A stretch of 64,000 bases of DNA from Prevotella sp. (GTDB lineage: Bacteria; Bacteroidota; Bacteroidia; Bacteroidales; Bacteroidaceae), in contig JAFZRU010000008.1 of the NCBI GenBank assembly GCA_017619755.1, positions 1 to 64,000 of the forward strand, in the 5' to 3' direction. The position numbers and the translations under genes were made by a program. Under the pieces are notes generated by a model. That model was given only the letters and a program-made list of their open reading frames with translations. It did not search any database and was not told where the DNA came from. Positions 12,411 to 40,382 of this stretch are shown here, one piece after another. Position 1 is the first letter of the stretch. Each line of letters begins with the position of its first letter.

Positions 12411-12458
12411 CTCACAAGAAAGAACAAGAAAAAGCTAATAAAAAAGACGAACATAGCT

Positions 12459-15704: not shown

Positions 15705-15744
15705 CGTGATTCGACTATTTGAAAAAATAAAGAAATTACACATC

Positions 15745-17511
15745 ATGATGAACAAGATATCCACTGGAAAGAAGAAAGCAATGAGTTCAAGGCTGATTGT
15801 TTTTTCACTTGTTATTTGCGCCTTGCCCATGACCATTGCGTGCAGCGACTTTTTGTACGATGACTCCGACATCGTCACCTACTCCGACAAGGAATTCCTG
15901 AACAGCGATGCCGACACCCTCTGGTCCGTGGTGGGCATCATCAACAAGATGCAAGCCATCGCCGACCGCACCATCCTGCTCGGCGAGTTGCGCGGCGACC
16001 TTGTGACCGTCACCTCGTATGCCGATGCCGACCTGCGTGATGTGTCGCAGTTCACCATGGGAAATGACAACAAATATGATTCACCCGTCGATTATTATGC
16101 CATCATCAACAACTGCAACTATTTCATCGCCCATGCCGACACTGCATTGAGAAACAACCGCAACGAGACGATTTTCATCAAGGAATATGCAGCAGTAAAG
16201 GCATTCCGTGCGTGGACATACCTGCAGTTGGCTCTTGTCTATGGAAGGGTGCCGTTTGTCACAGAGCCCATCACGAGCATGGAGCAGTCTGAGCAGTCGT
16301 TCCCTTACTATGGCTTGGAAGACATCTGCCAATACTTCATTGCCGACATCGCACCATACGCCGAGATAGAGCATCCTGGTTACGGAATCATCCGCAACAC
16401 AGACTCCAACCTGTTCTATTTCCCCATCTACATCCTCCTTGGCGACCTTAACCTATGGTCAGGCAATTATCGTGCCGCCGCCGAAAACTACTACAAGTAT
16501 GTCAGTCTGAGAAACGGCCGCAACTCCTCCTATCCCATCAGCACCAATTCCGTGCGTTTCGCCACGAACGACAGCCACTGGATGAGCACCATGGACAGTT
16601 GGTCGGTGATGGCATTCGGAACAGAGACCAGCTCCATCAATTCCGAACTCATCACCATGATTCCAGGCGACTCCATTCCTTCAGAAGGCAACTACAGTGA
16701 ATTGCGCGACCTCTTCAACACCAATGACCGCAATGAATACAAGGAGTCCATCATCGCCTCGCCATACCTCTACCAATTGTCCGAGGCACAGCGCTACTGC
16801 CACTACACCACTGGTGGCGAGTATGTGTTCTCCCCCGACGGCCTTGACAATCATCTCTCTGGCGACCTCCGGCTGCAGTCCTCATTCCGCCAATCATTCG
16901 TCAACATGACAATCAATGGAAAGCATGTCACCAACTATGTGTCCAACAACAAATACTCCACCCGCAACGTTCATATCTATCGACGCGCCATGGTGTATCT
17001 ACGCATGGCGGAGGCGCTGAACCGCGCCGGTTTCCCCCGTTTCGCTTTCCAAATCCTGAAAAGCGGTGTCAACAATAGTGTCATCGAAAACGAGGTGCTT
17101 CCCTATTATCCCTCAGACGAGGCATGGTTAAGAACTTTCAACTTCCCCGACAACATCTACGTTCTTGAGACCACAGCCCGGGGAAGCAATGAGAACACCA
17201 TGGGGTTACATTCCCGTGGCAGTGGCTATTCCAATGCCAACACATCCTACATCCTGCCCGACAACGAGCAACTTGATGACGCCCAACGGCTGCAATATCA
17301 AATCGAGAAAGTAGAGGATCTCATCGCTGATGAAGAAGCCTTGGAATTTGCATTCGAGGGTCATCGTTACTACGATCTCATGCGCATAGCCCTGCGTCGC
17401 AACGACCCTTCCTATCTTGCCGGCCATGTAGCACGTCGTAACGGCGCCACAGACCCTTCCCTGCTTGAAAAGCTCTCTTCGAAAGAGAATTGGTATTTGA
17501 AATTGGAATAA
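15745..17511 (+). CDS. SusD-family surface lipoprotein, partner of the second SusC
   Basis: The open frame extends back to a GTG at 15706, but the ATG at 15745 (MMNKISTGKKK) is preferred because it gives a normal lipoprotein signal ending in PMTIAC; ATG 15781 is also possible. From 15745 the protein is 588 residues. It has the SusD-type helical body (EYAAVKAFRAWTYLQLALVY) and C-terminal motif (ALEFAFEGHRYYDLMRIA). It resembles the SusD at 58928: both carry GE.RGDLV followed by a conserved INNCNY segment. It ends 12 bases before the regulator, so the sensor gene is in the same transcript. Confidence 0.9.
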   Translation: MMNKISTGKKKAMSSRLIVFSLVICALPMTIACSDFLYDDSDIVTYSDKEFLNSDADTLWSVVGIINKMQAIADRTILLGELRGDLVTVTSYADADLRDVSQFTMGNDNKYDSPVDYYAIINNCNYFIAHADTALRNNRNETIFIKEYAAVKAFRAWTYLQLALVYGRVPFVTEPITSMEQSEQSFPYYGLEDICQYFIADIAPYAEIEHPGYGIIRNTDSNLFYFPIYILLGDLNLWSGNYRAAAENYYKYVSLRNGRNSSYPISTNSVRFATNDSHWMSTMDSWSVMAFGTETSSINSELITMIPGDSIPSEGNYSELRDLFNTNDRNEYKESIIASPYLYQLSEAQRYCHYTTGGEYVFSPDGLDNHLSGDLRLQSSFRQSFVNMTINGKHVTNYVSNNKYSTRNVHIYRRAMVYLRMAEALNRAGFPRFAFQILKSGVNNSVIENEVLPYYPSDEAWLRTFNFPDNIYVLETTARGSNENTMGLHSRGSGYSNANTSYILPDNEQLDDAQRLQYQIEKVEDLIADEEALEFAFEGHRYYDLMRIALRRNDPSYLAGHVARRNGATDPSLLEKLSSKENWYLKLE

Positions 17512-20500: not shown

Positions 20501-21471
20501 ACATCGTCGATCATCATCATGGCACCATCATGGTGAATTCCGAAATTGGCAAAGGTTCCACCTTCACCGTCGTCCTGCCGGTCAAACAAGACATCTCCGA
20601 AACAGCCTCCATCCCATCAGAAACGAGTTCTCCAACATCGCAAGACAACGAAACCACTCCACAGACACCCACCCCACAAAATGCGAAAAAGGGAGAATCC
20701 ACACATGCCATCACCATGCTCATCATTGAGGACTCGGAAGATATGATGGCTTTTTTAGAGAGCAACTTCAGGCAAAAATACAATGTTATTACCGCCCACG
20801 ATGGAATAGAAGCACTCGACGTGCTATCCAAGCAAGAAATAGGCATCATTGTCTCAGACTGGATGATGCCCCGCATGGACGGTGCAGAACTCTGCCGCCA
20901 TGTGCGACGTAATGCCCTGACAAGCCATATCCCCATCGTGCTGCTCACTGCCAAGACCGATGATGAATCAAAAGTCGAAGGTATGGATGTGGGTGCCGAC
21001 GCCTATATCGAGAAACCATTTTCGATAGAATACTTGGAGGCTTGCATACGCAACATGCTCCACATGCGACACATCCTGATGAAGAAATTCTCATCACAGC
21101 CGCTTGAGCCTGTCACGAAGATAGCTCACAATCCTACCGATAACGAATTTTTGGCGAAGATGTACAAGATTATCGAGGATAATTTCTCCAACTCGGAATT
21201 GAACGTGAATTTCCTCGCAGAAAAGTTGAACATCAGCCGCAGTGGTCTTTTCGCCAAGATCAAATCGCTTGCTGATGTAACCCCCAACGAAATGATTTTG
21301 ATTGTCCGCCTGAAACGTGCGGCACAATTACTCCTTGAAGGTGGTCACACGGTGAGTGAAGTGAGTTACATGGTTGGTTTCTCCAATCCCTCTTATTTCT
21401 CAAAATGTTTCCACAAGCAATTTGGCATTCGTCCCACTGACTACCAAAAGTCTGGCAAACCCAACCAATAA
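17524..21471 (+). CDS. Hybrid two-component system regulator (sensor, kinase, receiver, AraC)
   Basis: This 1315-residue protein carries a whole signalling pathway. After a signal/anchor segment come two-component-regulator propeller repeats (about 35-660, e.g. GFMWFGTDNGLCRYDG), a Y_Y_Y domain (about 695-752) and a transmembrane helix (about 762-782). Inside the cell are the kinase with phospho-histidine H816 (IAHEIRTP), ATPase boxes (NLLTNANKYT, DNGIGI, GTGIGLN), a receiver with acceptor D1112 (VSDWMMPRMDG), and an AraC-type helix-turn-helix (about 1215-1312). All key residues are present. Starts at 17524, 17533 or 17551 are possible. Such regulators normally sense a degradation product in the periplasm and switch on the linked SusC/D genes, here the fasciclin locus. 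Confidence 0.95.
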   Translation: MPRMISSTYMARHPLLIFTMLMLLFTPTVAQDGYRYRNLTMNDGLAANAVRNIVQDKYGFMWFGTDNGLCRYDGVHVLTFHIPDLGRNQYVTSLLAADDGIYVGTELGVFLLSFEHENFEKQPIDIHTRVTSIAKDKESRLWVSTNGQGVFCGGKQYDFKSSGGVISQVFIDNSNQVWTLSNTGEPTLHKLNRLHDRFEPVTLDFPTNYNSLRMLQSRDGRIWLGSWEHGLLLMHNDGRLEQMLNPAETKVGIHIHTLYEHADDCICIGCDDGLICLNPKTKEWYRLSEKLQVPQNKLTDRFVYSIIGDTEGGLWVGTFYGGVSYLSPIGKRFDGYTVGEGLTGNVISRFCEDRHGHIWVASDDGGLICFSLADQNFIPYPHREELRWLNIHALAIKGDDLWIGTYTNGVYVLDTSTGNLRQFSKSDNVNSLDDNSSYAILHDSQGKTWVTTMTGINLYDAAKNQFERIGKTGAITIDIDEDKDGSIWFCTQGEGFFRLNRKNNKLKSYRYNPKDNHSICDNQVNCAYRDESGKLWIGTFSGLCTYDREHDNFSRIHLDIPNQNIQGIVESHGSLWLSTDYGVVKYVPGEGVQHFTLHDGLVGNQFQTNSVLKANDGRIYFGATNGFNAFYPHLIKTNDIPPPVYITSLRIMNRERNAGNGVTLNLSGKLDLGYNDARMITISFASLSYCSPEKNQYAYMLDGFDKEWNYAGNLSQATYTNLPAGKYTFRVKATNNDGIWSEKEATLLLVVHPPLWWSWWAKLLYLLLLVGIVWYYVHLRLKREKHRHQLEMESLTLKKEQEVRDARLRFFTMIAHEIRTPVSLIIAPLEKIIKRGNPSEEMRVIDRNSHRLLELVNQLLDFRKIEEQSMLIHFVPQNIHQLIEDVVVRFAPTIEQSGKKFTVEYPDPHFTAIVDREALTKVLSNLLTNANKYTKDEVSLRCVEEPSGEHFHIIVSDNGIGISEKDLPHIFDPFYQAEGNKPGTGIGLNIVKNIVDHHHGTIMVNSEIGKGSTFTVVLPVKQDISETASIPSETSSPTSQDNETTPQTPTPQNAKKGESTHAITMLIIEDSEDMMAFLESNFRQKYNVITAHDGIEALDVLSKQEIGIIVSDWMMPRMDGAELCRHVRRNALTSHIPIVLLTAKTDDESKVEGMDVGADAYIEKPFSIEYLEACIRNMLHMRHILMKKFSSQPLEPVTKIAHNPTDNEFLAKMYKIIEDNFSNSELNVNFLAEKLNISRSGLFAKIKSLADVTPNEMILIVRLKRAAQLLLEGGHTVSEVSYMVGFSNPSYFSKCFHKQFGIRPTDYQKSGKPNQ

Positions 21472-26277: not shown

Positions 26278-29200
26278 ATGTGGAATTTAAATTTAACAAA
26301 AAAAATGCGAACACTATTGTTCCTTTTTTGCTTCCTTCCCTTGGGAGTAATGGCACAGACCGTGCGTGGAACAGTAAGTGATGAAGCTGGTGAACCTGTG
26401 ATTGGTGCAAGCGTGCAAGTGCAAGGCACCAAGACGGGAGCAGTCACCGACTTCGATGGAAACTTCAGCGTGGAGGCAGCGAGCAACGCCACACTGATTA
26501 TCTCTTACATTGGCTACGTCACTGAGGAAGTCAGTGTCCAGGGCCGTAACAACATCCAGGTTACTCTGAGAGAGGACGTATCATCCCTGAACGACGTGGT
26601 TGTCATCGGTTATGGTACGATGAAGAAGAAATTGGTGACGGGTGCCACTGTTCAAGTAAAGGGTGAAGACATCGCCAAGTTGAACACCACCAACGCTCTC
26701 GAAGCCATGCAGAGTTCAACGCCCGGTGTGCAGATTACCCAGAGTTCCACACAGCCTGGCAAGGGTTACAAGGTTTACATCCGTGGTATCGGTACCACAG
26801 GCAACGCCACCCCACTTTATGTGATTGACGGTGTGGCCGGTGGCAACCTTGACGGCATCAACCCCAACGACATCGAGAGCATCGACGTGTTGAAGGATGC
26901 TGCTTCTGCAGCCATCTACGGTGCCCGTGCCGCCAACGGTGTCATCCTCGTGACCACCAAGCAAGGCAAGGCTGGCAAGATCGAGCTCAGCTACAATGGT
27001 GCCATGGGTTGGTCCAACGCCTACAAGCGCCCGCAGCTTCTCAATGCTCAGCAGTACATGACCATCATTGACGAGTACTCCTTCAACACCTCAGGTCAGA
27101 AGATGAATTGGGCAGGCACAGGCAATAACGACGGCTTCGTTCCCCAGGACATACTCAAGAAGGTTGCCGACGGTTGGGAAGGCACCGACTGGTGGGGTGC
27201 ATTCGAAAACGAGAACGCTGTTCAGCAGAATCACTCAGTGACCTTGACCGGTGGTACAGACCGTTCCAAGTTTGCCATGTCCTACACCTATACTGGCAAC
27301 GAAGGTATCATGGGTGCAGAGAGGGCTTCCTTCTACAAGCGTCACACCATCCGCATCAACAGCGATCATGTGCTCTTGAGAGTCAAGGACTTCGATGCCA
27401 TCACCATCGGTGAGAACATCTCGATTGGTTACACCAAGAGTCACGATTTGGCAGAGGACGGCATGTATTGGAGCTACATCCACAGCTTGCTCCAAACCTG
27501 TCCACTCGTGCCACAGTATGCCGACAATGGCGACATCTATTATTATCAGGACTTTGACGGTAATGTCAAATATGGTCAAGGCTGGAACGCTTCTTTGTTC
27601 AGCAATCCATGGGAGAACCTCATGAAAGGTGGTTTTAACTCCATGGCAGAAAGCCGCAACATCAACACCAACGCCACCGCTTTCCTCACCATCCAGCCCA
27701 TCAAGGGTCTGAGGTTCCGTTCACAGTTCAACTACAGCTGGGGTTCAGGTGCCTATCGCAACTACGGTGAGCCTGTCTCATCTGGTTATGGAAATGCCAC
27801 CTCACCTATTTATAGTGTGAGCCAGAGTACATGGATCAATACCAATTGGTCTATCGAGAACACCCTCACCTATGACCTTCCCATCATTTCAGGTCACAAG
27901 ATCAGCGCGATGGTAGGTCAGACCTTCCAAAGCACCGACTGGAGTGTTAATCTTGGTGGATCCAACAAGGTGAATTATGGCGACCAGCTCGCCACCTTGA
28001 AGGGTTGGAATTCCGCTTGGCTGTCCAACATCAAGTTGGTGAATGCCACTGATGCCACTTTGACTGGCAAGCCCAATGATGAGGAGTATCTCGCTTCTTG
28101 GTTCGGCCGTGTGAGCTGGGACTGGAATGAGACCTATATGGCAACCGTCACCATGCGTTATGATGGTTCAAGTATCTTCACCGATGGCAAGCGTTGGGGC
28201 TTCTTCCCATCAGTGTCTGCAGGATGGGTTGTCAGCAATGAGAAATTCATGGATAGCACCAACAGCTGGTTAGACTTCTTCAAACTCCGCGCTTCCTGGG
28301 GTCAGAACGGTAACAAGGACATCTCCAAGTACCAGTATCTTGCCACCATCGCTCTTTCGGGTGAGTCTGGAGACTCTGGCTACAAGTTCGGTTCCGATAT
28401 GGCGACTTCTGTTGCAGGAAGTCCCAACGTAGGTGCTTACGCCAACATCGTTCCCAACCCCGACCTTACCTGGGAGACCTCCGAGCAGCTTGACTTCGGT
28501 TTCGACGCTCGTTTCCTCCACAGCCGTTTGGGCTTGAACTTCGACTGGTATAAGAAGACCACCAAGGACTGGTTGATTGGTGGCAACCTGCTTGCCATCT
28601 ATGGAACCAACCCCGCCGCCATCAATGGTGGTGACGTGGAGAACACCGGTATTGAGCTTGCCCTGACTTGGAACGACAGGATTGGCAGTGACTTCAGCTA
28701 CAACGTAGGCGTCAACTTTGCCACCAACAAGAACAAGGTCACCCGTATCGCCAACGACAACCACTACATCAATGGTCCTTCAGGTGTCCTCTCACAGGGT
28801 ACAGAGTACTGCTACCGTGCAGAGGAAGGCAAGCCCATCGGTTACTTCTACGGTATGTCCTACAGCGGCATCTGGCAGAACCAGGCCCAGATTGACGCAG
28901 CCCGTGCAGCCGGCAAGGCAGTTCTTGACAACGCACAGCCCGGTGACTGCATCTGGGACGACTACAATGGTGATCATGTGATTACCTACGCAGAAGGCGA
29001 CAATTGCGACCGTCATGAGATTGGCAACCCCAATCCCGACATTATGGTTGGTCTCAACCTTGGTCTGAGCTGGAAGGGATTTGACTTCGCATTAAATGGT
29101 GCCGGTGCCTTTGGCATGCAAATTATGCGTTCTTACCGTTCATTCAGCGACGCTCCTTACCAGAACTACGACACCACCATCCTTGACCGTTGGGTGGGCG

Positions 29201-29529
29201 AGGGCAGTTCCAACACCATGCCTCGCATTTCCGCTACTGGTCACCAGAACACAAACTGGGTCTCCACTCGTTACATGGAGGATGCCGACTACTTCAAGAT
29301 CAAGACCGTCACGTTTGGTTACGATTTCAAGCATATTTGGAAGTCTTGCCCACTCCAGCAGCTTCGTCTTTATGTCCAGGCTCAGAACCTCATCACCTTC
29401 ACTGGCTACACAGGCCTCGATCCTGAGGTAGGTAACTCAGCAGGTGGTAGTGGTTGGGCATCTGGTATCGACCTGGGTCTCTACCCACCATCTCGTACAT
29501 ATTTGGTAGGTGCAAGTATTAAATTCTAA
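26278..29529 (+). CDS. SusC/RagA-family TonB-dependent transporter
   Basis: The 1083-residue protein has a signal peptide (cut near GVMAQ; ATG 26305 is an alternative start), a textbook carboxypeptidase-regulatory-like domain at about 25-105 (VRGTVSDEAGEPVIGASVQV), a plug (LNDVVVIGYGTMKKK, then ASAAIYGARAANGVILVTT) and a C-terminal barrel ending GASIKF. Codons ending in T (GGT, CGT, GTT) are more frequent than in neighbouring operons, which fits high expression. Only SusD and one small lipoprotein accompany it; no enzymes or sensor are linked, so the ligand is unknown. Confidence 0.95.
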   Translation: MWNLNLTKKMRTLLFLFCFLPLGVMAQTVRGTVSDEAGEPVIGASVQVQGTKTGAVTDFDGNFSVEAASNATLIISYIGYVTEEVSVQGRNNIQVTLREDVSSLNDVVVIGYGTMKKKLVTGATVQVKGEDIAKLNTTNALEAMQSSTPGVQITQSSTQPGKGYKVYIRGIGTTGNATPLYVIDGVAGGNLDGINPNDIESIDVLKDAASAAIYGARAANGVILVTTKQGKAGKIELSYNGAMGWSNAYKRPQLLNAQQYMTIIDEYSFNTSGQKMNWAGTGNNDGFVPQDILKKVADGWEGTDWWGAFENENAVQQNHSVTLTGGTDRSKFAMSYTYTGNEGIMGAERASFYKRHTIRINSDHVLLRVKDFDAITIGENISIGYTKSHDLAEDGMYWSYIHSLLQTCPLVPQYADNGDIYYYQDFDGNVKYGQGWNASLFSNPWENLMKGGFNSMAESRNINTNATAFLTIQPIKGLRFRSQFNYSWGSGAYRNYGEPVSSGYGNATSPIYSVSQSTWINTNWSIENTLTYDLPIISGHKISAMVGQTFQSTDWSVNLGGSNKVNYGDQLATLKGWNSAWLSNIKLVNATDATLTGKPNDEEYLASWFGRVSWDWNETYMATVTMRYDGSSIFTDGKRWGFFPSVSAGWVVSNEKFMDSTNSWLDFFKLRASWGQNGNKDISKYQYLATIALSGESGDSGYKFGSDMATSVAGSPNVGAYANIVPNPDLTWETSEQLDFGFDARFLHSRLGLNFDWYKKTTKDWLIGGNLLAIYGTNPAAINGGDVENTGIELALTWNDRIGSDFSYNVGVNFATNKNKVTRIANDNHYINGPSGVLSQGTEYCYRAEEGKPIGYFYGMSYSGIWQNQAQIDAARAAGKAVLDNAQPGDCIWDDYNGDHVITYAEGDNCDRHEIGNPNPDIMVGLNLGLSWKGFDFALNGAGAFGMQIMRSYRSFSDAPYQNYDTTILDRWVGEGSSNTMPRISATGHQNTNWVSTRYMEDADYFKIKTVTFGYDFKHIWKSCPLQQLRLYVQAQNLITFTGYTGLDPEVGNSAGGSGWASGIDLGLYPPSRTYLVGASIKF

Positions 29530-29543
29530 TTCGACAACAAGTT

Positions 29544-31499
29544 ATGAAGAAATTTATTATATCATCGTTAGCAGTTTTGTCCGCAGTAACTTTGTTTACA
29601 GCTTGTAATGACATGCTGGACACCGATCCACGTGTTACAGAGTTGACTGCAGCTACATTCCCTGGCAAGCCAGGCGATGTTGAGGCGTTGAATGCAGCTA
29701 CCTATAGTATCATGAATACATTAGGTGGCGGTGACCAAAGTGGCATCTTGAACAATCCTTTCTATTGGTGGTCTCTTATGTCTGACGACTGCTACGGCAG
29801 TGGCGGTTTGCAGGACAATGTGGCCAAATCGTTGCATCATTTCACAACGGCAAGTGCCAACCAGTATGAGCAGGATTTCATCCTTCTCTATGGTGGTATT
29901 TCACGTGCCAACAACCAGATTGAGACCATCGACAATGTGGAATGGACTGAAGCTCAGAAAGCTCAGCGCAATCAGTTGCTTGGCGAGGGCTTCTTCATGC
30001 GTGGTTTCTATACTCTGTTGCTCACCCAGATGTACGGCGACGTACCTCTGATTACCACTACCGTTATTACTGAAGACATGTGGGATGAGGTGAGTGCCGA
30101 GGACGTGATTTACCCACAGATACTTGCAGACTTTATTTCTGCCAAGAATCTCATGAAGCCAGAAAGAGCCAATGGTTCAGGTCATGCTGACAAGTTCTGT
30201 GCCGAGGCATTCATTGCCCGTGCTTGGATGTTCTGGGCCGGCTTCTATAAGAAAGCTGGTGAGCTCGCCAACGCTGATGCTACCATGAACCTTGTGAACG
30301 CCGCTGGTGAGCCTATCACTCAGGAGGGCCTTAATGTCACTTCCATTTCCAAGGCAGATGTCGTAGCTGGTCTTCAAGACATCTATTCCAATGGCGGTTA
30401 CAAGCTTTGCGAGGATTTCCGCTCACTCTGGCAATACTCCAACAGCTACCTTTGGGACGAGGCACACGACAACGCAGATGGCACAGGCAACCTTGAAGGC
30501 ACCCATGCATACGCTTTCATCGCTGACATGAAGCGTGAGAACTGCTTCGACCAGCCTGGTATGGGCAACGGCAACACCGAGGAGCTTTTCCAGATTCAGT
30601 TTATGAACGCATCCGATTGGGGCATTGGTGGTACATACAACAATCCCCGTATGTATTCCAACTACCTTTCCTGCTTCTGGGGTCTTCGTAATGGTGCCAC
30701 CAATGATAATGGTAGGCGTGACAAAACCTATCCGTTCAACCAAGGTTGGGGTCAGGGAACTCCTTCTTGCAACATTTGGGATGATTGGACAGACGCTGAG
30801 AGAGCTGGTGGTTACACGGACATGCGTAAACTCGCTACTCTGATTGACCTCGACAATGAGCTTGAATCCTATACTTATGAGAAGGATGACAATGAGGAGT
30901 CTGGCTATGCTGTCAAGAAGTATGCCGATGTCAACCTCGACGCTTGCGCAGCCGACAACGATTCATGGTGGTCAAAAGCTGGAGGTGATAGCTATACCAG
31001 CTCACTGAACAACAAGCAGCAGGGCGACCACTTCGAGGACTACTACCTGATGCGTTATGCTGACGTTCTGCTCATGCTGACCGAGCTTACAGGAAATGCT
31101 TCTTTCATGAACCAGGTTCAGAAGCGTGCCGGTGTTCCTGAGACGCCATATTCTTGGAAGGCACTTCAGGACGAGCGTCGTTGGGAATTTGCTTTGGAGG
31201 GACTTCGTTTCAACGACATGCGTCGCTGGTCTGGCAAAGACTCTGGAACGAATTCATACGCTGCTCAAGCCCTCCAGAAGCAGAAAGGCAAGCAGGTTGT
31301 ATGCTATGGCCAGAAGAGTGCCAAGCGTTCTTTGGAACACATGACATCTGCAGGTTGGGCCAAGCGTTACGCTGACACCAATGGTTTCCTCCCCAAGCCT
31401 CAAGCTCAGATGACTCTGATGAACAACAGGATGAAGCAGAACCCAGGATGGGATGAAAATACTCCTGCTGAAGAGTGGACATATAAAGTTCTTTATTAA
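29544..31499 (+). CDS. SusD/RagB-family surface lipoprotein
   Basis: The 651-residue lipoprotein (lipobox LFTAC, then NDMLDTDPRV) is the lid of the SusC 14 bases upstream. SusD landmarks include the early helical repeat (GEGFFMRGFYTLLLTQMYGD) and the C-terminal DERRWEFALEGLRFNDMRRW. It is longer than a typical SusD, with an extended middle part (about 300-440). It belongs to a three-gene operon. Confidence 0.93.
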   Translation: MKKFIISSLAVLSAVTLFTACNDMLDTDPRVTELTAATFPGKPGDVEALNAATYSIMNTLGGGDQSGILNNPFYWWSLMSDDCYGSGGLQDNVAKSLHHFTTASANQYEQDFILLYGGISRANNQIETIDNVEWTEAQKAQRNQLLGEGFFMRGFYTLLLTQMYGDVPLITTTVITEDMWDEVSAEDVIYPQILADFISAKNLMKPERANGSGHADKFCAEAFIARAWMFWAGFYKKAGELANADATMNLVNAAGEPITQEGLNVTSISKADVVAGLQDIYSNGGYKLCEDFRSLWQYSNSYLWDEAHDNADGTGNLEGTHAYAFIADMKRENCFDQPGMGNGNTEELFQIQFMNASDWGIGGTYNNPRMYSNYLSCFWGLRNGATNDNGRRDKTYPFNQGWGQGTPSCNIWDDWTDAERAGGYTDMRKLATLIDLDNELESYTYEKDDNEESGYAVKKYADVNLDACAADNDSWWSKAGGDSYTSSLNNKQQGDHFEDYYLMRYADVLLMLTELTGNASFMNQVQKRAGVPETPYSWKALQDERRWEFALEGLRFNDMRRWSGKDSGTNSYAAQALQKQKGKQVVCYGQKSAKRSLEHMTSAGWAKRYADTNGFLPKPQAQMTLMNNRMKQNPGWDENTPAEEWTYKVLY

Positions 31500-31519: not shown

Positions 31520-32254
31520 ATGAAAAAGATATTATTGCTTATTGCCACAGTATTCGTTTTCGCTGGTTGCGACCCTACTCATGAGGATATCAGCAATGGT
31601 GGCCACATCACTGTTGATGAACTCAAGGCGAAATCCAGTGTCACTGTTGACAAGGCTGCGGACGGCCAGAATGGCAACGTGGTCACTTGTTCTACCTCAG
31701 CCCCCGTCAATGCCAAGTGGAGCATTGGTGGCAAGGATATCATTGGCAATTATGCTTGGAAGAAGATGAAGCTTGGTGATCATGTCGTCGTGCTAACTGC
31801 TATTTGCCCCGACGGCACCGAGCTTAAAGCTGAATACCCTATCACCTGCAGCGTCGTTACCAACGCTCTCGAGAAGTTCTACATCTATGGCGACCCTTCC
31901 AAGCCTGAAGAGGTTCCCTTCCAGCCAGGTGCTTGGGATGCAGCAGCCATGCGTTTCAGCTCCACTGAAGGCGCCCATCTGCCCACCATTCCCGATGATG
32001 TCTATTTTGGCTTCAAGACTTTGATTTTTGACGTCTCAGATGTTACTGACGACTTTGATTTGAAGGTCATGAACGGCTGGTGGAGTAACACCTATTACGA
32101 TCATGTGAAGTGGGTTTCAGGTTTGAATGAGCTTCAGATTACTGAGACCATGGCCAAGGAGTGCGCCAAGGGTAACGGTGGCGAAGGCCGCGACCTCGAC
32201 CTCATGCTGTACAGCGGCTCCATGACGCTCAATTCTGTTTACTATGAGGAATAA
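31520..32254 (+). CDS. Surface lipoprotein, SusE/SGBP-like accessory of the SusC-SusD pair
   Basis: The 244-residue product has a lipobox at cysteine 17 (FVFAGC), then an Ig/PKD-like region at about 30-115 (NAKWSIGGKDIIGNYAW ... HVVVLTAICPDG) and a C-terminal beta-rich domain at about 120-244 (LKVMNGWWSNTYYDHVKW). Small lipoproteins in this slot are usually surface ligand-binding proteins working with SusC/D. The W/Y-rich C-terminal domain supports ligand binding but names no substrate. It is the last gene before a strong terminator. Confidence 0.75.
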   Translation: MKKILLLIATVFVFAGCDPTHEDISNGGHITVDELKAKSSVTVDKAADGQNGNVVTCSTSAPVNAKWSIGGKDIIGNYAWKKMKLGDHVVVLTAICPDGTELKAEYPITCSVVTNALEKFYIYGDPSKPEEVPFQPGAWDAAAMRFSSTEGAHLPTIPDDVYFGFKTLIFDVSDVTDDFDLKVMNGWWSNTYYDHVKWVSGLNELQITETMAKECAKGNGGEGRDLDLMLYSGSMTLNSVYYEE

Positions 32255-32286
32255 TCATTCCTTATCGGTATAAATAATTAATATTA

Positions 32287-32316
32287 GGCTGACCCATTTG
32301 ATTGGGTCAGCCTTTT
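32287..32316 (+). terminator. Strong rho-independent terminator after the SusC-SusD-SGBP operon
   Basis: GGCTGACCCA (32287-32296), loop TTTGAT, TGGGTCAGCC (32303-32312), TTTT. A perfect 10-base stem with a T run 32 bases after the stop. Confidence 0.92.
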
Positions 32317-32476: not shown

Positions 32477-34060
32477 ATGAGGACCAACCAGCGCAAGTAT
32501 CCAATAGGAGTACAGACCTTTGAAAAGATAATCAAAGGAGGATTTGTTTATGTGGACAAAACCGATTTGATGTGGAAGATGACAAAGGTGAGCAATTATG
32601 TTTTCCTTAGCCGCCCCCGCCGCTTCGGAAAGTCGCTGTTATCATCCACTCTCCATTCATTTTTTGCCGGACAAAAGGAGTTTTTTGAGGGACTGAAGGT
32701 GATGCAGTTGGAGCAGGAATGGAAGGAGTATCCTGTCATCCATTTGGACTTGAGCATGGCCAAAGGCAAGGAGTCAGCCGACGAACTTCAGCGGACGTTG
32801 ATGCTGATGCTGTCACGATGTCCATATTTCGATGGAAATGATTTTGAGAAGACACCAGGTGAACGATTGACAGGTATGATTCAGCGTGCATATCATCAGA
32901 CCCAACGTCAGGTAGCGGTCATTATTGACGAATACGATGCACCTTTGCTCGAAGTGCTCCATGAGGAGGAGAATCTGCCTACATTCCGCAAGGTGATGCA
33001 GGAGTTCTATGTGCCGCTCAAGGCCTGCGACCCCTATATCAAGTTCTGCTTCATTACAGGTATCACGAAATTCTCCCAATTAAGCATCTTTTCCACCATC
33101 AACAACCTGAAAAACCTCTCCATGCGCCCTGACTTTTCTGCAATCTGCGGCATTACGGAAGAGGAAGTGAAGACTGTCTTTGCTGAGGACATCCAAAGGA
33201 TGGCAAGAAAATATGAATGCACACCCGAGGAGATGTTTCTTAAGATCAAGAACAGGTATGACGGCTATCACTTCGCAAAGGAGTCGCCCGATATTTACAA
33301 CCCTTTTAGTCTGCTCAATGCTTTCGATGACTGTGAGCTAAATAGCAGTTGGTTCGCCTCGGCCACACCCTCCTATCTTATCCAGCAGATGAAGCATTTC
33401 CGAACAGACATTACCTCTTTGGATAATATGGAAGAGCCAGCAGATGCTTTCGACATTCCTACGGAGGCCATGACCACAGCCCTTCCTTTACTCTACCAGA
33501 GCGGCTATCTGACCATCAAGAGCTATGACCGCGAGACGGAGATGTACACACTCTCCATCCCCAATCAGGAGGTGCGCATAGGTTTTACCAAGGGGTTGTT
33601 GCCTACTTATACAGGAATAGAGGTTGGCTATACGCAAAAAGGCTTTGCCCTGAGATTCTGGCAAGCTCTGAGAAAGAATGACTTAGAATTAGCCTTGCAA
33701 GAGATGAAGTCTTTCCTCGCCGCCGTACCCTATGTAGAGGGTTTCAAAAAGAAACTGGAGGAGGCCGCCACGGCAGAGGGGTTCTATGAGTACACCTTTT
33801 GGCTCATCTTCAACATGCTCAACGTCTATACCCGCACGCAAGTCAAGTGTGCCGGAGGCAGAACGGACATAGTGGTATGGATGCCCGATACCATCTACGT
33901 ATTGGAGCTAAAGGTTAATGGTACGGCAAAAGAGGCTCTCCATCAAATCAACACAAAAGGCTACGCCACACCATACGCTACTGATGGACGTCGTGTGGTA
34001 AAGGCCGGCATTCGTTTCAATATAGATTTCCGTACTATTGATGATTGGATAATAGAATGA
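32477..34060 (+). CDS. AAA-ATPase-like / PD-(D/E)XK nuclease family protein
   Basis: The 527-residue product belongs to a family that is abundant and often multi-copy in Bacteroidales, with an N-terminal AAA-ATPase-like domain (PF09820 type) and a C-terminal PD-(D/E)XK nuclease-like domain (PF08011 type). Visible marks are IGVQTFEKII, a Walker-A-like RPRRFGKS with K52, a Walker-B-like VAVIIDEYDAPLLE near 150, and a nuclease core GGRTDIVVW (about 460) followed by VLELK (about 478). All catalytic-type residues are present. The biological role is not established. Its stop overlaps the next start by four bases (ATGA). Confidence 0.88.
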   Translation: MRTNQRKYPIGVQTFEKIIKGGFVYVDKTDLMWKMTKVSNYVFLSRPRRFGKSLLSSTLHSFFAGQKEFFEGLKVMQLEQEWKEYPVIHLDLSMAKGKESADELQRTLMLMLSRCPYFDGNDFEKTPGERLTGMIQRAYHQTQRQVAVIIDEYDAPLLEVLHEEENLPTFRKVMQEFYVPLKACDPYIKFCFITGITKFSQLSIFSTINNLKNLSMRPDFSAICGITEEEVKTVFAEDIQRMARKYECTPEEMFLKIKNRYDGYHFAKESPDIYNPFSLLNAFDDCELNSSWFASATPSYLIQQMKHFRTDITSLDNMEEPADAFDIPTEAMTTALPLLYQSGYLTIKSYDRETEMYTLSIPNQEVRIGFTKGLLPTYTGIEVGYTQKGFALRFWQALRKNDLELALQEMKSFLAAVPYVEGFKKKLEEAATAEGFYEYTFWLIFNMLNVYTRTQVKCAGGRTDIVVWMPDTIYVLELKVNGTAKEALHQINTKGYATPYATDGRRVVKAGIRFNIDFRTIDDWIIE

Positions 34061-35844
34061 AAAACAAAAGCAAAGCACCCAGTGTCCTCCTCTATGTAAG
34101 TGTGTTGGTTTTCATTGCATTTGTAGCATATATACTACACATCAACCAGGAGGTACTCTACACGGCACACGACCGTTCCGAATTCATTTACGGAGCCCCC
34201 TTCTTCCATACGCTCCTGTCAAAACCCTTTGGTTTGATGCGGTATGTAGGCGCGTGGCTCACACAGCTCTTTTGTCGTCCAGCCATAGGTGCAGGTGTGC
34301 TGGTGATCATCTGGGCACTCATCTACTTTGTAGGTGCCAAGGCATTCCGTTTACAGGGAAGCCTCTCCGCACTGATGCTCTTGCCTATAGCCTGCTTGCT
34401 CACCTCCATTGTCGATTTGGGCTATTGGGTTTATATCTCAACCATCAGAGGCTATTGGTTCTCACAGTCGGTGGGTTATCTCCTCATGCTGTTGCTTTTG
34501 TGGGCGGCACGTTGCACCCCCCGCAAATGGCATCTTGCCTGGTGTCTGCTTGCCGCATGCCTCTATCCTGTGCTTGGATGGTTTGCTTTGCTTTTCATTA
34601 TCTGCCTCGCGCTCACAGAGAAACCCACCTGGCGCGAGTGTGTAGGCATCGTCCTGCTCGTGTTTACCGCCGGCATCTGGCATACGCAGGCCTATTCCTA
34701 TCTGAGAGCCAACGATGTCACGCTGGCCGGCTTCCCCCGCTTCGAAACCCCCATGGACTCAAGCCCGCATCTCTCCATCCCGTTCTGGATACTTGCTGCT
34801 GTCTCCGTGCTCATTCCTATTTGTGGCCAATACCTGGCTCGACCAAAATTCAAGTGGCTTGTGCCGGTGCTGTGTGCCATTGCAGGCATCTTCATCACCA
34901 CGTCGTTTATGTTCCATGACAAGAACTACATCGACGAAATGCGGATGGTGCGCCTTGCTTCCGACGACAACTGGCAGGAAGTCCTCAAAATGGCAGAAGC
35001 GAACAAGAAGCCAACGAGCACGATGGTATTTCTCAAGAATATAGCCCTGATGAACGAAGGCGGCTTATTAGACCGTTCGTTCAAATTGGGCAACGATGCC
35101 GCCAACCTCCACAACCCCGACACCTTGCACGTCACCCTTTTGGACATCGCTTCGCCTTTGGTATATTACAACTACGGCATGATGAATGAAGCCATCCGTC
35201 TTAATTTCGAGAATGCTATCCAAGCCGGTTTCTCGCCCTTCTACCTGAAGATGCTTACCCGCTGCGCCTTGGCTGTCGGCGACAAGAAGTTGGTGGAACG
35301 CTACACCACCCTACTCCATCATCTCCCATTCTACGGCGACTGGCAACCGGCACCGGTCACAGAAAAAATCAAGGAACTTCAAACATGCTATCCCGATGAG
35401 ATCACCGGCGTTGAGAACAGCGAGAGCTATCTTGTCAATGGCATCAGTCTATGGTACGAATCCGATAGCAAAGTGGCTTCCGAACAGGCGTTGTTCTATT
35501 CCATGCTGCGTTGCGACTCTCGTCGTTTCTGGGCATCGTTGAAAAACTATGTGAAATTGCATCTTGACGAAGAATTTCCCCTGCATGCGCAGGAAGCCTA
35601 TATCCTGTTCATGGACAAGTCGCCGGAAGAAAAGCGGATGATGCTCCCCGTGGAGCAGTCCGTTTTCGACCGTTACAAACAGTTCTGGGCTACCTTGGAA
35701 AGTCTGGCACAGCCAGGCATGACCCTTCAAAAAGTAGGTGAGGCCATGCATAAAGAATATGGAGACACCTACTGGTGGTACAACCTCTTCGGAAGAAAAC
35801 CTCTTCAATTATCAGGAAAGATTGGAAACGACATTCATGCGTAA
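34057..35844 (+). CDS. Polytopic membrane protein, module A copy 1 (DUF6057-like)
   Basis: The frame can be read from a TTG at 34045, but ATG 34057, overlapping the previous stop as ATGA, is the natural start and gives 595 residues. The first 300 residues hold about eight or more hydrophobic helices; the rest is soluble and helical, repeat-like (about 310-595, e.g. NYGMMNEAIRLNFENAIQAG). I recall this architecture as DUF6057, from memory. It is paralogous in layout to the gene at 37372: both start with one helix, share a YWW/FH periplasmic segment, and end in TPR-like helices. Function unknown. Its end overlaps the next gene by 8 bases. Confidence 0.7.
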   Translation: MKNKSKAPSVLLYVSVLVFIAFVAYILHINQEVLYTAHDRSEFIYGAPFFHTLLSKPFGLMRYVGAWLTQLFCRPAIGAGVLVIIWALIYFVGAKAFRLQGSLSALMLLPIACLLTSIVDLGYWVYISTIRGYWFSQSVGYLLMLLLLWAARCTPRKWHLAWCLLAACLYPVLGWFALLFIICLALTEKPTWRECVGIVLLVFTAGIWHTQAYSYLRANDVTLAGFPRFETPMDSSPHLSIPFWILAAVSVLIPICGQYLARPKFKWLVPVLCAIAGIFITTSFMFHDKNYIDEMRMVRLASDDNWQEVLKMAEANKKPTSTMVFLKNIALMNEGGLLDRSFKLGNDAANLHNPDTLHVTLLDIASPLVYYNYGMMNEAIRLNFENAIQAGFSPFYLKMLTRCALAVGDKKLVERYTTLLHHLPFYGDWQPAPVTEKIKELQTCYPDEITGVENSESYLVNGISLWYESDSKVASEQALFYSMLRCDSRRFWASLKNYVKLHLDEEFPLHAQEAYILFMDKSPEEKRMMLPVEQSVFDRYKQFWATLESLAQPGMTLQKVGEAMHKEYGDTYWWYNLFGRKPLQLSGKIGNDIHA

Positions 35845-37366
35845 GAAAACAATGAAAAGACATACCCTCCCCTATTTGCAACTTTTGGCCGTTGCCATGT
35901 TGCTCTTGTCCTCGTGTGTGCATCACCCCGACATCCCTTCTTCGTCCAAAGAGGCCAAGTGCCTGCCAGCCATCTTCCCTGACTATTGCGGCGTCACCGT
36001 GCCGTACAACATCGCTCCCCTCAATTTCATGCTTGCGGATAGCACGTACAATGAATGTGTGGCACGTATCACCACCCCCGACGGCCAGCAGCAGACCTAC
36101 GGCAGTGGCGTGAAGGTGCAGATACCCGAGTCGGAATGGCATGACATGCTCGATGCCTCGAAAGGCAAGAGCATAAAGGTAGAGGTATGGGGGCAGAAAG
36201 ATGGCGAATGGCTATCGTTCAACCCGTTTGAGATACATGTTGCCGAAGAACCCATTGACGAATATGTGTCGTATCGCCTCATCGAGCCATCGTACGTGGC
36301 TTGGACCTTCATGGAGATAGCCCAGCGCCATCTCACCACATTTGAAGAGACACAAATCTTCAACAATGAGATCACGATGAATGACAAGACCATCGGCCAG
36401 TGCATCAACTGTCACAGCTATCAGAACTACAAGACCGACAACATGCTCTTCCACGTGCGCCTCTCCAATGCCGGCACCGTCATTGTGAACGATGGCAAGG
36501 TTTCGAGAGTCAATATGAAGCGCGACTATACCATTTCAGGTGGTGTTTATCCTGCATGGCATCCCACCGCCAAACTGATAGCCTTCTCCACCAATAAGAC
36601 AAGGCAGGCATTCCATACTGTCAATCCCAACAAAATCGAGGTTTACGATTTGGAAAGCGACATGATTCTCTACGACGTAGAGACCGACTCTGTGAGCATC
36701 GTCAGCAATGATTCCACGCTTTTGGAGGTGTATCCCACCTGGTCGCCCGATGGCAAATACCTCTATTACTGCAAGTCCGTACCACTTCCTGAAGAGATGC
36801 GCGACAAGGACGTCCGATCCACCTACTCGAAAATACAATACAACCTCTATCGCCGTTCATTTGATTTGGCAACACATGGCTTCGGCGAAGAGGAGCTTGT
36901 CTATGATGCAGCCTCTGCCGACAAGAGCGTCACGCTGCCACGCATCAGCCCCGATGGCCGCTACCTGCTCTTTGCCCTTGGCCAGTATGGCTGTTTCCAT
37001 AGCAGGCACCATGATGCAGACATTGTTTGCATCCCTATGAACCAGTATTCCGGCACTGCCCTCACCGCAGAAACCTCTTCGGCCATCGACCTCACCCCTC
37101 TCAACAGCGAAGGCTATTCTGACAGCTACCCCTCCTGGTCGAGCAACGGTCATTGGATCATGCTTGCCAGTCGTCGTGACGATGACAACTACAGCCGTGT
37201 CTATTTCTCCTATTTCAACAACGGGAAAGTAGGAAAGGCCTTCCTCATGCCGCAGGAAGACCCAGAAGACAACCTCTTCCTTCTGAAGAGCTACAACCGT
37301 CCGGAGTTCATGGTGGAACCTGTCAAAATCAGCGTTGAAGAGTTTAGTAGGGTGTTTGACAAATAG
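35837..37366 (+). CDS. Beta-propeller lipoprotein with CxxCH heme-type motif, module B copy 1
   Basis: An upstream ATG at 35738 would lie inside the previous gene; ATG 35837 (or 35852) gives a proper lipoprotein signal (LLLSSC) and about 509 residues. The N-terminal 170 residues are beta-rich (IFPDYCGVTVPYNIAPLNFM). C189-I-N-C-H193 is a perfect CxxCH, the attachment signature of c-type heme, in an exported protein. The C-terminal 300 residues are TolB/PD40-type propeller blades (YPTWSPDGKYLYYC, LPRISPDGRYLLFA, YPSWSSNGHWIMLASRRDD). Heme binding is inferred from the motif only. The same layout recurs at 38901. Confidence 0.8.
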   Translation: MRKKTMKRHTLPYLQLLAVAMLLLSSCVHHPDIPSSSKEAKCLPAIFPDYCGVTVPYNIAPLNFMLADSTYNECVARITTPDGQQQTYGSGVKVQIPESEWHDMLDASKGKSIKVEVWGQKDGEWLSFNPFEIHVAEEPIDEYVSYRLIEPSYVAWTFMEIAQRHLTTFEETQIFNNEITMNDKTIGQCINCHSYQNYKTDNMLFHVRLSNAGTVIVNDGKVSRVNMKRDYTISGGVYPAWHPTAKLIAFSTNKTRQAFHTVNPNKIEVYDLESDMILYDVETDSVSIVSNDSTLLEVYPTWSPDGKYLYYCKSVPLPEEMRDKDVRSTYSKIQYNLYRRSFDLATHGFGEEELVYDAASADKSVTLPRISPDGRYLLFALGQYGCFHSRHHDADIVCIPMNQYSGTALTAETSSAIDLTPLNSEGYSDSYPSWSSNGHWIMLASRRDDDNYSRVYFSYFNNGKVGKAFLMPQEDPEDNLFLLKSYNRPEFMVEPVKISVEEFSRVFDK

Positions 37367-37371
37367 TTCCA

Positions 37372-38904
37372 ATGAAGATTATTCGTTCTATCTGCACTCT
37401 CCTTTTCGGTGTGGCCGTTGTCCTCTTTTTCGGACTGGCCTATCCGCATCATCTGCATTATCAGGAGCAGTATCAACTATTCCTCTTCGACAGCACCTAC
37501 TGGTGGGAGGTTGTCAAGTTATCAGGTGGCATAGCCGACCTTTTAGGACGCTTCTGCACACAGTTTTTCCTATTTGCCTGGGTGGGTGCCCTTATCATTG
37601 GGGCAATGCTCACGGCAGTGCAGCTCCAGACGCTCCAGTTGGTCAATTCATGGACGAGCCAAGCGGCAAAGCCGAGTGAGGGATGGCTCTATGGCCTGAG
37701 CTTTGTGCCTTCGTTTCTGCTCTGGCTCTTCCTGCTCGACGAGAATGCGCTATTGGGTGGTGTCTGGGCTGTCCTCCTCACACTTCATGCGTCTTGGCTA
37801 TTCTCCAAACTACCCAAAGGCAGGGTACAACGTGTTCTGCTCGTTGCCGCCATTCCCATCCTCTATTGGATGGTGGGTCCTGTCTGCATCGTATTCTTTT
37901 TCCTGCAGGCTCTACGCCCTCAACGCTCTGCATGGTATTGCGGAGTGTTCGTACTTTTGGCTGCCATGCCCATCCTGCTGTCATACTATCTCCCGGTACC
38001 AGCCGACAAGCTATGGTACGGCATCCATTACCATCGCTATCCAACAGAAATACCAGTTCTGCTTTGGGCCGCTGCCTTTTCCATCTTCGTCCTCGCACTC
38101 ATTATCCGTGTCTTGACCCATTGGAACAAGGCTCTTCAAACCTCTTTCCTCATTCCTCTTTTCTCATTCCTATCGGTGTTTATTGGCATGGGGAGTCTCG
38201 TCTGGACAAGCAGCAATTTCAAAGCAGAAAAGGTGATGCAATATGATTTCATGGCCTGCCACCAGCAATGGAACCGCATCCTTGAGACCATCAACGCCGA
38301 AAAGCCCAACAACCAAATCGGTGTCACGGTGCAAAACCTTGCCTTGGCCATGCACGGTCTGCTCGGCGACCACCTGTTCGACTATCACCAAAATGGCCTC
38401 CATGGACTTCTGCCCGATGTTGAGAGCGATGCGACCAGTCCCATGCCAACAGCCGAGGCATTCTATCAGTTGGGCATGATCAATGTCGCCCAGCGAACGG
38501 TATTCGAGGCCCAGGAAGCCATCCTTGATTTCCAGAAAAGCGCCCGATGCTACAAGCGCTTGGCACAGACCAATCTCATCAACGGCAGTTACGAAGTGGC
38601 TCGCAAATATCTCACGGCGCTGCAAAAAACCCTTTTCTATCGTGGATGGGCCAATGAAACCCTGTCGCTGTTGGGCGACGAAAAGGCGATAGCCAAGCAC
38701 CCCGAATACGGACATCTGCGTCAATTTGCCTACGACAAAGACTTTTATTTCAGCGACCATGTACCCCCTGAAATGCTCGAAAGACTCTACTATGGCAATA
38801 CTGACAACCGCCTTGCATACGAATATCTGAGAGCCTATTACATGCTGACGGGCGACCGCGAAAGCTATGCCAAGTTACTACTTCACACCTCCACCAAGCA
38901 ATGA
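37372..38904 (+). CDS. Polytopic membrane protein, module A copy 2 (DUF6057-like)
   Basis: The 510-residue product starts with a hydrophobic helix (LLFGVAVVLFFGLAYP), has about eight helices to residue 290, then a soluble TPR-like C terminus (YQLGMINVAQRTVFEAQEAI ... ANETLSLLGDEKAIAKHP). It matches the gene at 34057 in topology and in local features (YQLFLFDSTYWWE here, LYTAHDRSEFIYGAPFF there), but identity looks low, so the duplication is old. It starts 5 bases after the first propeller gene and overlaps the next gene by 4 bases (ATGA), consistent with a co-translated module. Confidence 0.7.
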   Translation: MKIIRSICTLLFGVAVVLFFGLAYPHHLHYQEQYQLFLFDSTYWWEVVKLSGGIADLLGRFCTQFFLFAWVGALIIGAMLTAVQLQTLQLVNSWTSQAAKPSEGWLYGLSFVPSFLLWLFLLDENALLGGVWAVLLTLHASWLFSKLPKGRVQRVLLVAAIPILYWMVGPVCIVFFFLQALRPQRSAWYCGVFVLLAAMPILLSYYLPVPADKLWYGIHYHRYPTEIPVLLWAAAFSIFVLALIIRVLTHWNKALQTSFLIPLFSFLSVFIGMGSLVWTSSNFKAEKVMQYDFMACHQQWNRILETINAEKPNNQIGVTVQNLALAMHGLLGDHLFDYHQNGLHGLLPDVESDATSPMPTAEAFYQLGMINVAQRTVFEAQEAILDFQKSARCYKRLAQTNLINGSYEVARKYLTALQKTLFYRGWANETLSLLGDEKAIAKHPEYGHLRQFAYDKDFYFSDHVPPEMLERLYYGNTDNRLAYEYLRAYYMLTGDRESYAKLLLHTSTKQ

Positions 38905-40382
38905 AAAAAACCATCTATACACTGCTGTCCGTTCTGCTGTTTTCTTCATGCACCGAGACTGTCAGCGATGCCAAGCAGGAAAGTGTTCTGCCACCTATCT
39001 ACCCCGACTACGTCGGTGTCACCATCCCCGTGAACATTGCTCCTCTCTGCTTTTGCATGGCAGACGAGGGGGTGGAGCGAATTGATGCCGTCATCACAGA
39101 CCGCCACGGAAACGACCTTCACTGCCAAGGTGAGAAATCGCTTGATTTCGACCTTTCCGACTGGCATGCACTGCTTGACCAGAACCGTGGAGACTCGCTC
39201 AGCGTCACCGTGTCGGCCAAGCATGCTGATGGTTGGCACACCTACCGTCCCTTCTCCATCTACGTCAGCCCTGACAGCATCGACTACGGCCTCTGTTATC
39301 GTCTGATCGAGCCAGGATACGAGGTGTGGAGCAAAATGGGCATTTACGAGCGCGACCTTTCCTCGTTTGACGAGCGTGCGTTGATAGAGAACACACAGTT
39401 CGAGGGGTGCGTCAACTGCCATAGTTTCAACCGTGGCAACCCTGACGACATGAGCCTGCACATCCGCGGCCCGCATGGTGCCACGCTGCTGCGCCACTCT
39501 ACCTCCAAGTCACTCCTACCCCTCACCGCTTACAACACCAAGACCGACCAAACGCTCGGCTTCTGTGTCTATCCCTACTGGCATCCTTCGGGCCACTACA
39601 TCGCCTATTCCACCAACGCCACGAGTCAGCTGTTCCACAGTGCCGACCCCAACCGTATCGAGGTCTTTGACACCGCCTCCGACCTTCAAGTCTATGACGT
39701 TGAAAATAATGAGTTACTGCTTTCGCCCCTTCTCAAGCAAGACTCCATCTATGAAACCTTTCCCGTTTTCTCCGCCGATGGCCGTTCGATCTATTTCTGC
39801 GCAGCCCGCGCCCTTCCGAAGGACAGCCATCAACTCGACTCCGTCCGATATAATCTCTGCCGCATCGATTTCGACCCAGCAACAGGTCGCTTTGGCAGCC
39901 AAATAGAAACCATTGTCGATGCAGAGTCCCAACGCAAGTCGGTCTCCTTCCCCCGCCCCTCCTACGATGGCCGTTTCCTTTGCTACACCCTCTCCGACTA
40001 CGGACAGTTCAGCATCTGGCATCATGAGGCCGACCTCTATCTCCTCGACCTTGCCACAGGAGAGAGCCGCCCCATGTCCGAGGCCAATTCTAAAGATACG
40101 GAATCGTTCCACAACTGGAGCACCAACTCTCGCTGGTTGGTGTTTAGTTCCCGTCGTGACGACGGTCTCTTCACGCGCCCCTATTTCTGTCACGTCGATG
40201 CCAAGGGGGTTGTCAGCAAGGCCTTCATGCTACCGCAGCAAAATCCTCGCCGCTTCTATCGCGAGCGTTTCCTTTCCTTCAACGTGCCAGAATTCATCAT
40301 CCGCCCCACCCGCTTCGACAGTCACAAAGCCAGCCGGCTCATCAACGATGAATACCGCAAGGACTTTGGGGTGAGGAAATAA
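38901..40382 (+). CDS. Beta-propeller lipoprotein with CxxCH heme-type motif, module B copy 2
   Basis: The 493-residue lipoprotein (VLLFSSC lipobox) is paralogous to the one at 35837: IYPDYVGVTIPVNIAPLCF near the start, a CxxCH at C170-V-N-C-H174 followed by SF/SY, then YWHPSGHYIAYSTNATSQLFH and further propeller blades (SFPRPSYDGRFLCYTLSDYG, WSTNSRWLVFSSRRDD). Both copies keep the CxxCH and the order around it, so the motif is under selection rather than chance. Heme attachment would need a cytochrome c maturation system, which is not in this window. Confidence 0.82.
   Translation: MKKTIYTLLSVLLFSSCTETVSDAKQESVLPPIYPDYVGVTIPVNIAPLCFCMADEGVERIDAVITDRHGNDLHCQGEKSLDFDLSDWHALLDQNRGDSLSVTVSAKHADGWHTYRPFSIYVSPDSIDYGLCYRLIEPGYEVWSKMGIYERDLSSFDERALIENTQFEGCVNCHSFNRGNPDDMSLHIRGPHGATLLRHSTSKSLLPLTAYNTKTDQTLGFCVYPYWHPSGHYIAYSTNATSQLFHSADPNRIEVFDTASDLQVYDVENNELLLSPLLKQDSIYETFPVFSADGRSIYFCAARALPKDSHQLDSVRYNLCRIDFDPATGRFGSQIETIVDAESQRKSVSFPRPSYDGRFLCYTLSDYGQFSIWHHEADLYLLDLATGESRPMSEANSKDTESFHNWSTNSRWLVFSSRRDDGLFTRPYFCHVDAKGVVSKAFMLPQQNPRRFYRERFLSFNVPEFIIRPTRFDSHKASRLINDEYRKDFGVRK

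Follow-up and report, generated by a model that had tools for sequence, protein, structure and literature searches.

A two-gene unit of gut and rumen Bacteroidales, pairing a DUF6057 membrane protein with a CxNCH propeller lipoprotein and often adjoining fibre-uptake genes

The window studied here is a 64,000-nucleotide stretch of a Prevotella sp. genome (assembly GCA_017619755.1, contig JAFZRU010000008.1, positions 1 to 64,000). At 34057-40382 it carries four genes in the order D1-P1-D2-P2, where D stands for a membrane protein of family DUF6057 and P for a PD40 propeller lipoprotein with a CxxCH motif. All four lie on the + strand, have no internal stops and are joined at junctions of 7, 5 and -4 nt. 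A previous sequence-only reading had described a membrane-protein/CxxCH-propeller pair occurring twice in a row with tight junctions, and these gaps bear it out. The genes are as follows:

34057-35844, + strand: D1, DUF6057 membrane protein, 595 aa; about eight hydrophobic segments ahead of a long soluble tail, possibly of tetratricopeptide repeat (TPR) type
35852-37366, + strand: P1, PD40 propeller lipoprotein of subfamily A1, 504 aa; motif CINCH, CxxCH codons from 36401
37372-38904, + strand: D2, DUF6057 membrane protein of subfamily B2, 510 aa; tail shorter
38901-40382, + strand: P2, PD40 propeller lipoprotein of subfamily B2, 493 aa; motif CVNCH, CxxCH codons from 39408

Both membrane proteins match the functionally unassigned Pfam family DUF6057 (PF19529) far above its curated cut-off of 29.8 bits (D1, E 2.6e-73, 248 bits; D2, E 5.7e-142, 475 bits). 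They are strongly diverged from each other, the best BLASTP segment covering 169 columns at 24% identity (E 4e-9). The propellers match PD40 at E 1e-14 (P1, 54.4 bits) and 2.8e-8 (P2, 33.9 bits), against a curated cut-off of 20.9, and share 36% identity over 502 columns. A lipoprotein-type signal opens each of them, and the single CxxCH lies at residue 184 in P1 (CINCHSY) and residue 170 in P2 (CVNCHSF).

D and P form one unit, because in 249 genomes of the family both were found in 179, D only in one (G510), P only in none and neither in 69 (D at E up to 1e-20, 180 genomes; P at E up to 1e-30, 179). Up to six propeller matches occur per genome. The source genome has five DUF6057 genes and five propeller genes, always as neighbours, distributed over four loci, which gives three pairs besides the two in the window. 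Across 222 D-to-P junctions the median distance is 1 nt, and 205 of them measure 30 nt or less. Genetic linkage of the two genes elsewhere, whose absence the sequence-only reading named as a refuting outcome, is found in nearly all genomes examined. In G510, assembled as a single contig, a looser propeller search gave only E 8.5e-4. Lone DUF6057 genes of 604-605 aa without P were seen in four genomes of one genus (L132, 12622-14436, which is G510; L157, L159 and L161).

Evolutionary distances among D proteins and among their P partners correlate at 0.91 (188 of 219 pairs, the other 31 having lost a member to filtering). In the 54 loci that hold more than one pair the correlation is 0.95, compared with a mean of 0.26 and a maximum of 0.50 in 500 within-locus partner swaps. 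This shows inheritance as a unit; linkage alone can produce such a correlation, and it does not prove contact.

In a draw of 296 genomes from the phylum, DUF6057 exceeds the cut-off in three, the source genome included, and 21 more stay under it with weak matches (E 5.9e-5 to 9.5e-4). At E up to 1e-8, the propeller profile matches 14 of the same genomes: strongly in the same three, clearly but as distant forms in two (E 5.1e-32 and 2.7e-35), and in nine at E 6.8e-9 to 9.3e-12, which were taken as other PD40 proteins. Loci in named genomes were taken from the best 80 of 411 relatives; these are mostly rumen or gut Prevotella, with Bacteroides, Parabacteroides, Phocaeicola, Dysgonomonas, Tannerella and Marinilabilia also represented.

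The CxxCH motif is present in all five propellers of the source genome. By gene calls it was found in 106/106 propellers of 84 selected genomic stretches (one of which, L133, holds no module) and in 132 of 135 propellers of the 80 named loci, 130 of these having CxNCH; the three without it are short (281, 81 and 134 aa). The two sets overlap in some genomes and are not fully independent. Since the gene-calling script kept the longer of two overlapping frames, some genes were lost, such as the L188 modules and the L129 propeller. A recount on open frames, without gene picking, gave 109 and 136 propeller frames instead of 106 and 135. All near-full propellers among them carry CxxCH (109/109 and 133/133, in total 242/242), in the form CxNCH in 108 and 131. 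The only propeller frames without it are three partial ones, two adjoining in L229 and one in L269. In L229, a propeller copy is split into two adjoining frames, neither of which covers the motif region; this copy is likely broken.

An alignment of 225 propellers, which remained once short or identical rows had been removed, shows both Cys and the His of CxxCH to be invariant (225/225), the N to be conserved at 98.7% and the lipobox Cys at 97.8%. Further invariant residues are, in P2 numbering, W88, Y133, R134, R189, G294, S354, N396 and W412. The earlier expectation of a conserved heme-type motif is thereby upheld, and its loss in most homologues, named as a refuting outcome, did not occur. 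No invariant distal His or Met was detected in the same alignment, the best candidates being H374 (94%), H228 (90%), H404 (88%), H187 (85%) and M184 (44%). A distal ligand differing between subfamilies is possible.

Presence of the propeller mostly goes with that of a heme lyase. The CcsA-type lyase family PF01578 was detected in 223/249 genomes of the family; a match is missing from 6/179 P-bearing and from 20/70 P-less genomes (Fisher p 5.8e-8, kinship ignored). Co-occurrence with cytochrome c maturation genes, suggested in the sequence-only reading, thus holds for 173 of the 179 P-bearing genomes, or 175 when two ResB matches are added. Within the genus of the source genome, the lyase is found in 8/8 P-bearing and 9/15 P-less genomes. 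G510, the single-contig genome with D only, gave neither a P nor a lyase match. The source genome has two CcsA-type matches, one of them in a 736-aa protein adjoining a CxxCH protein; the genes around it are presumably an imelysin and di-heme set. P is a putative c-type heme protein on this evidence.

To place P in the cell envelope, lipoprotein signals were compared. Surface lipoproteins of Bacteroidetes have acidic residues just past the lipidated Cys (PMC5080379). A surface-type signal was scored as at least two D/E at positions +2 to +6 of proteins with a recognised lipobox (168/225 P, 22/25 SusD and 14/14 homologues of a third lipoprotein encoded next to SusD). It was found in 6% of P, and in 86% of both SusD and the third lipoprotein. 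As P mostly lacks the surface export signal, we place it in the periplasm, which it would face as an exported lipoprotein.

For D, the prediction of a polytopic membrane protein with a TPR-like tail stands in its first part, with about eight hydrophobic segments followed by the long tail. Its second part has weak support: a Pfam search reaching E 1 returned no TPR for either D protein, and aligning the D tail with genuine TPRs by hhalign produced a weak match (probability 2.6%, E 0.018, score 22, compared with at most 15.2 in 10 column shuffles). D evolves fast and few of its polar residues are conserved; no His, Cys or acid reaches 85% conservation. Reading D as a GT-C glycosyltransferase was considered and abandoned, as its acidic residues all fall short of that level.

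Contact between D and P is suggested by fused relatives. Three proteins in two distant genomes of the phylum (L283, L284, L295) combine the N-domain, CxNCH, propeller and TPRs in a single chain, with the motif aligned to that of P. They suggest that the D tail docks P, and are better evidence of contact than the distance correlation. In one stretch, L302, there are in addition genes for CxxCH proteins, which we take for cbb3-type oxidase subunits.

The most telling hint of function, overlooked in the sequence-only reading, is the glycan-uptake gene context. In the window, the module is preceded by the following features:

26278-29529, + strand: SusC/RagA-type TonB-linked outer membrane transporter, same gene block
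29544-31499, + strand: SusD-type surface lipoprotein, same gene block
31520-32254, + strand: the third lipoprotein, a lipoprotein-like protein of 244 aa with no Pfam match; its family has a surface-type signal
32286-32313, + strand: 11-pair hairpin in the stretch from the SusC-SusD-lipoprotein genes to the D-P genes; covariation in ten aligned loci
32477-34060, + strand: AAA-ATPase_like/PDDEXK_9 gene between the hairpin and D1

SusC-/SusD-type clusters, those of the window included, occur in 40 of the 84 stretches, and 48 of the 80 named loci match the window's SusC or SusD. The tandem of rumen Prevotella and relatives lies 3' of SusC-SusD-lipoprotein genes and a covarying hairpin. A contiguous SusD-lipoprotein-D-P-D-P block is present in 9/80 named loci (L198, L200, L203-L207, L210 and L267), with a lipoprotein-to-D1 gap of -11 to 86 nt and the hairpin inside it. 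In 11 of 14 named loci nothing separates the homologue of the third lipoprotein from the D gene directly 3' of it. The AAA-ATPase_like/PDDEXK_9 gene of the window is not part of the D-P module. A gene of this type, which directly precedes D1 here, also stands 5' of D in Parabacteroides distasonis (L306, 8546-10114). A defence-system reading was dropped after a PADLOC search (E up to 0.01) with D1, P1, D2, P2 and the AAA gene product returned zero matches.

The window hairpin has a z of -6.3. In an alignment of the window and nine loci, which excludes L199, L201 and L207, 99.1% of cells pair and 4/11 pairs change on both sides. This count of changes was reached in 6/500 shuffles, and the number of pair types in 84/500. 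A consensus scan found the window hairpin to be terminator-like on the minus strand only. It would be a terminator, an attenuator or a stability element, and may set the expression ratio between the uptake genes and the D-P units.

P. distasonis offers further contexts. Three of its records annotate P only as 'PD40 domain-containing protein' beside a 'DUF6057 family protein'. One unit pair is arranged as DUF4369-D-P-D-P and followed by genes for a glycosyl hydrolase, a glycosidase, an MFS transporter and an AGE epimerase, a set that we read as a mannan operon. Another unit, the third in this species, is found 3' of SusC, SusD, a '6-bladed beta-propeller' and an ATP-binding protein. Within the genus of the source genome, GH10 xylanase occurs in 8/8 P-bearing and 5/15 P-less genomes, a clearer association than in the family as a whole. 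The Segatella copri glucomannan study PMC12704710 makes no mention of 'propeller', 'heme' or 'RidA'.

Two other genes recur near D-P units in other Bacteroidales: a DUF4369 lipoprotein (L142, 10403-11011; 34 matches, the one in L009 not adjacent) and a RidA/FkbO-like protein of 373 aa (L142, 11022-12143; 20 matches). Upstream in the window, 785-17511 holds two more SusC-SusD sets interleaved with three fasciclin-domain proteins, and a hybrid two-component regulator follows at 17524-21471.

With moderate confidence, we interpret the module as a periplasmic heme-c propeller with an inner-membrane partner, acting as an accessory unit of glycan acquisition. Each D-P pair would be one functional unit. 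P would be exported as a lipoprotein to the periplasm and composed of an N-terminal domain, a short segment whose CxNCH would hold one covalent c-type heme, and a PD40 propeller resembling TolB. D would be its inner-membrane partner, docking P through the soluble tail, and the unit would serve glycan-acquisition operons, both SusCD loci and mannan-type operons. The heme could be a sensing or catalytic centre, with P binding a ligand or oligosaccharide and signalling to D or working with it. Sensing or catalysis is our guess from the sequences, and is favoured over plain electron carriage by the lack of an invariant distal His or Met. A more specific proposal is that a five-coordinate c-type heme propeller and its membrane partner make up a new periplasmic heme sensor or enzyme, which would couple gut redox or gas state to polysaccharide uptake in Bacteroidales; we put it forward only tentatively, as an unlikely version.

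Several observations weigh against the accessory-unit interpretation. No SusC/SusD is present in the examined part of 44/84 stretches and 32/80 named loci. The second P. distasonis unit adjoins the housekeeping genes pfkA and meaB, and given the differing contexts in this species, some units are not linked to a glycan operon. Among the other neighbours, families vary widely: in a Pfam scan of 105 neighbouring genes, a subset of 244 from which known D, P, SusC, SusD and third-lipoprotein genes had been left out beforehand, none occurs in more than five, the commonest being RidA-type. Of the 244, 111 fell within a residue limit; six of them were left out, three for running past a locus end. Family-wide, GH10 xylanase tracks the module weakly (106/179 P-bearing and 30/70 P-less genomes, p 0.024). 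Regarding the heme, G304 and G368, the two genomes rescued by ResB, match only the N-terminal part of the source genome's CcsBA-like protein. Four further P-bearing genomes (G327, G332, G404 and G492; 60-350 contigs) gave no lyase match in the PF01578 and ResB searches and have propellers with CxxCH; G327 is 99% complete. CxxCH in genomes lacking a heme-attachment system, another refuting outcome named beforehand, is not cleanly observed, and these 4/179 still stand on its side. A variable distal ligand is compatible with electron transfer, evidence of TPRs in the D tail is weak, and hydrophobic-segment analysis of D fixes no membrane side for the tail.

It is conceivable, if rather improbable, that P carries electrons or belongs to a redox enzyme, exchanging electrons with a periplasmic partner, for example to oxidise or reduce imported sugars or aromatic decorations. 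Known quinohemoproteins also combine a c-type heme motif with a propeller. An esterase gene follows the D-P genes in the window, its weak matches including a feruloyl-esterase model (130.7 bits against a cut-off of 1200), and the RidA/FkbO-like gene repeatedly adjoins the pair. The missing invariant distal ligand in the 225 propellers argues against such a role, as do the conservation of every His, Cys and acidic residue of D at less than 85% and the absence of redox enzymes from the 25 commonest families among the 105 scanned neighbours, with 88 rarer families beyond this count.

Similarly doubtful is a purely structural heme. D-P would then be TolB-like, joining the inner and outer membranes as a scaffold or for transport, and would assist SusCD or a second import step. 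The fast evolution of D with few conserved polar residues, the adjoining SusCD and mannan-type genes, and the presence of TolB chains, as weak matches, among the closest solved relatives by sequence would all fit. However, the two Cys and the His rank among the most conserved residues of P, beyond what a structural extra needs, and P has no match to the TolB N-terminal domain.

We consider it quite unlikely that CxNCH binds no heme and is instead a metal or thiol site. The four P-bearing genomes without a detected lyase speak for this option, but an exact CxxCH in exported proteins, the lyase association and the same motif in fused relatives oppose it.

Relationships between the two modules were assessed on a tree of the 225 propellers. 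A 104 versus 121 split (support 0.989) sets P1 and the three other propellers of the source genome apart from P2, and P1 and these three belong to a group of 45 (support 0.999) from which P2 is absent. A recent tandem duplication is rejected on this basis: the two pairs do lie side by side, as described earlier, but the window appears to hold two units of two old subfamilies kept together. D(A1)-P(A1)-D(B2)-P(B2) is the exact order in eighteen complete arrays, and one further array is longer. A D gene lies 3' of 22/25 A1 propellers; the remaining 3/25 stand alone, which makes the doubled arrangement frequent without being a requirement. Outside the window's ortholog group, single D-P runs (33, 27, 18 and 10 for the four commonest forms) outnumber double runs (16, 9 and 4). 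That the modules are the unlike halves of an obligatory heterodimer, in line with the proposal in the sequence-only reading, is favoured by the fixed order and by the D gene behind most A1 propellers; given the solitary A1 units and the frequent single D-P units in the family, it is not supported as a rule and has little probability.

A putative heme-c lipoprotein is present in 179/249 genomes of one family, and DUF6057 gains a partner and, with it, a role that experiments can address. Should the heme be real, fibre use would partly rely on heme in the periplasm. Many of the Bacteroidales hosts take up heme instead of making it. To our knowledge, fermenting gut and rumen Bacteroidales are not considered rich in c-type cytochromes beyond nitrite reduction and iron-linked loci. 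In B. thetaiotaomicron, nrf and iron-regulated ccsA loci are described in PMC10434189. In the literature searched, which most subscription papers lie outside, DUF6057 is not named in any paper and nothing was recognised as a D-P system, in agreement with the earlier statement that the function is undescribed.

Compared with known systems, the parts of the unit are of known kinds, while their combination appears undescribed. P shares exported PD40 repeats with the TolB propellers of Tol-Pal; its 13 solved-structure matches are mostly TolB chains and all weak (best TolB E 0.0025). It differs in being a lipoprotein with CxNCH and in having no TolB N-terminal domain match, and scores 30 bits in the NCBIfam TolB equivalog model, against a cut-off of 343. 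With c-type cytochromes of System II (CcsBA), P has in common an exported CxxCH protein in genomes that usually contain a CcsA-type lyase, but no Pfam cytochrome c domain was found in it. The conserved distal His/Met typical of a six-coordinate electron carrier has no invariant counterpart in P, where H374 at 94% comes closest. Lipoproteins of SusE/SusF type, or surface glycan-binding lipoproteins of polysaccharide utilization loci, are likewise encoded next to SusC-SusD; P differs from them by mostly lacking the acidic surface signal and by having a membrane partner. The propeller-TPR proteins share a similar N-domain, CxNCH and propeller with P, and differ in their single chain with an N-terminal membrane anchor, as read from the sequence, in two genomes with no D over the cut-off. 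Finally, D1 and D2 are full members of DUF6057 (PF19529), and this family is tied here to a propeller partner.

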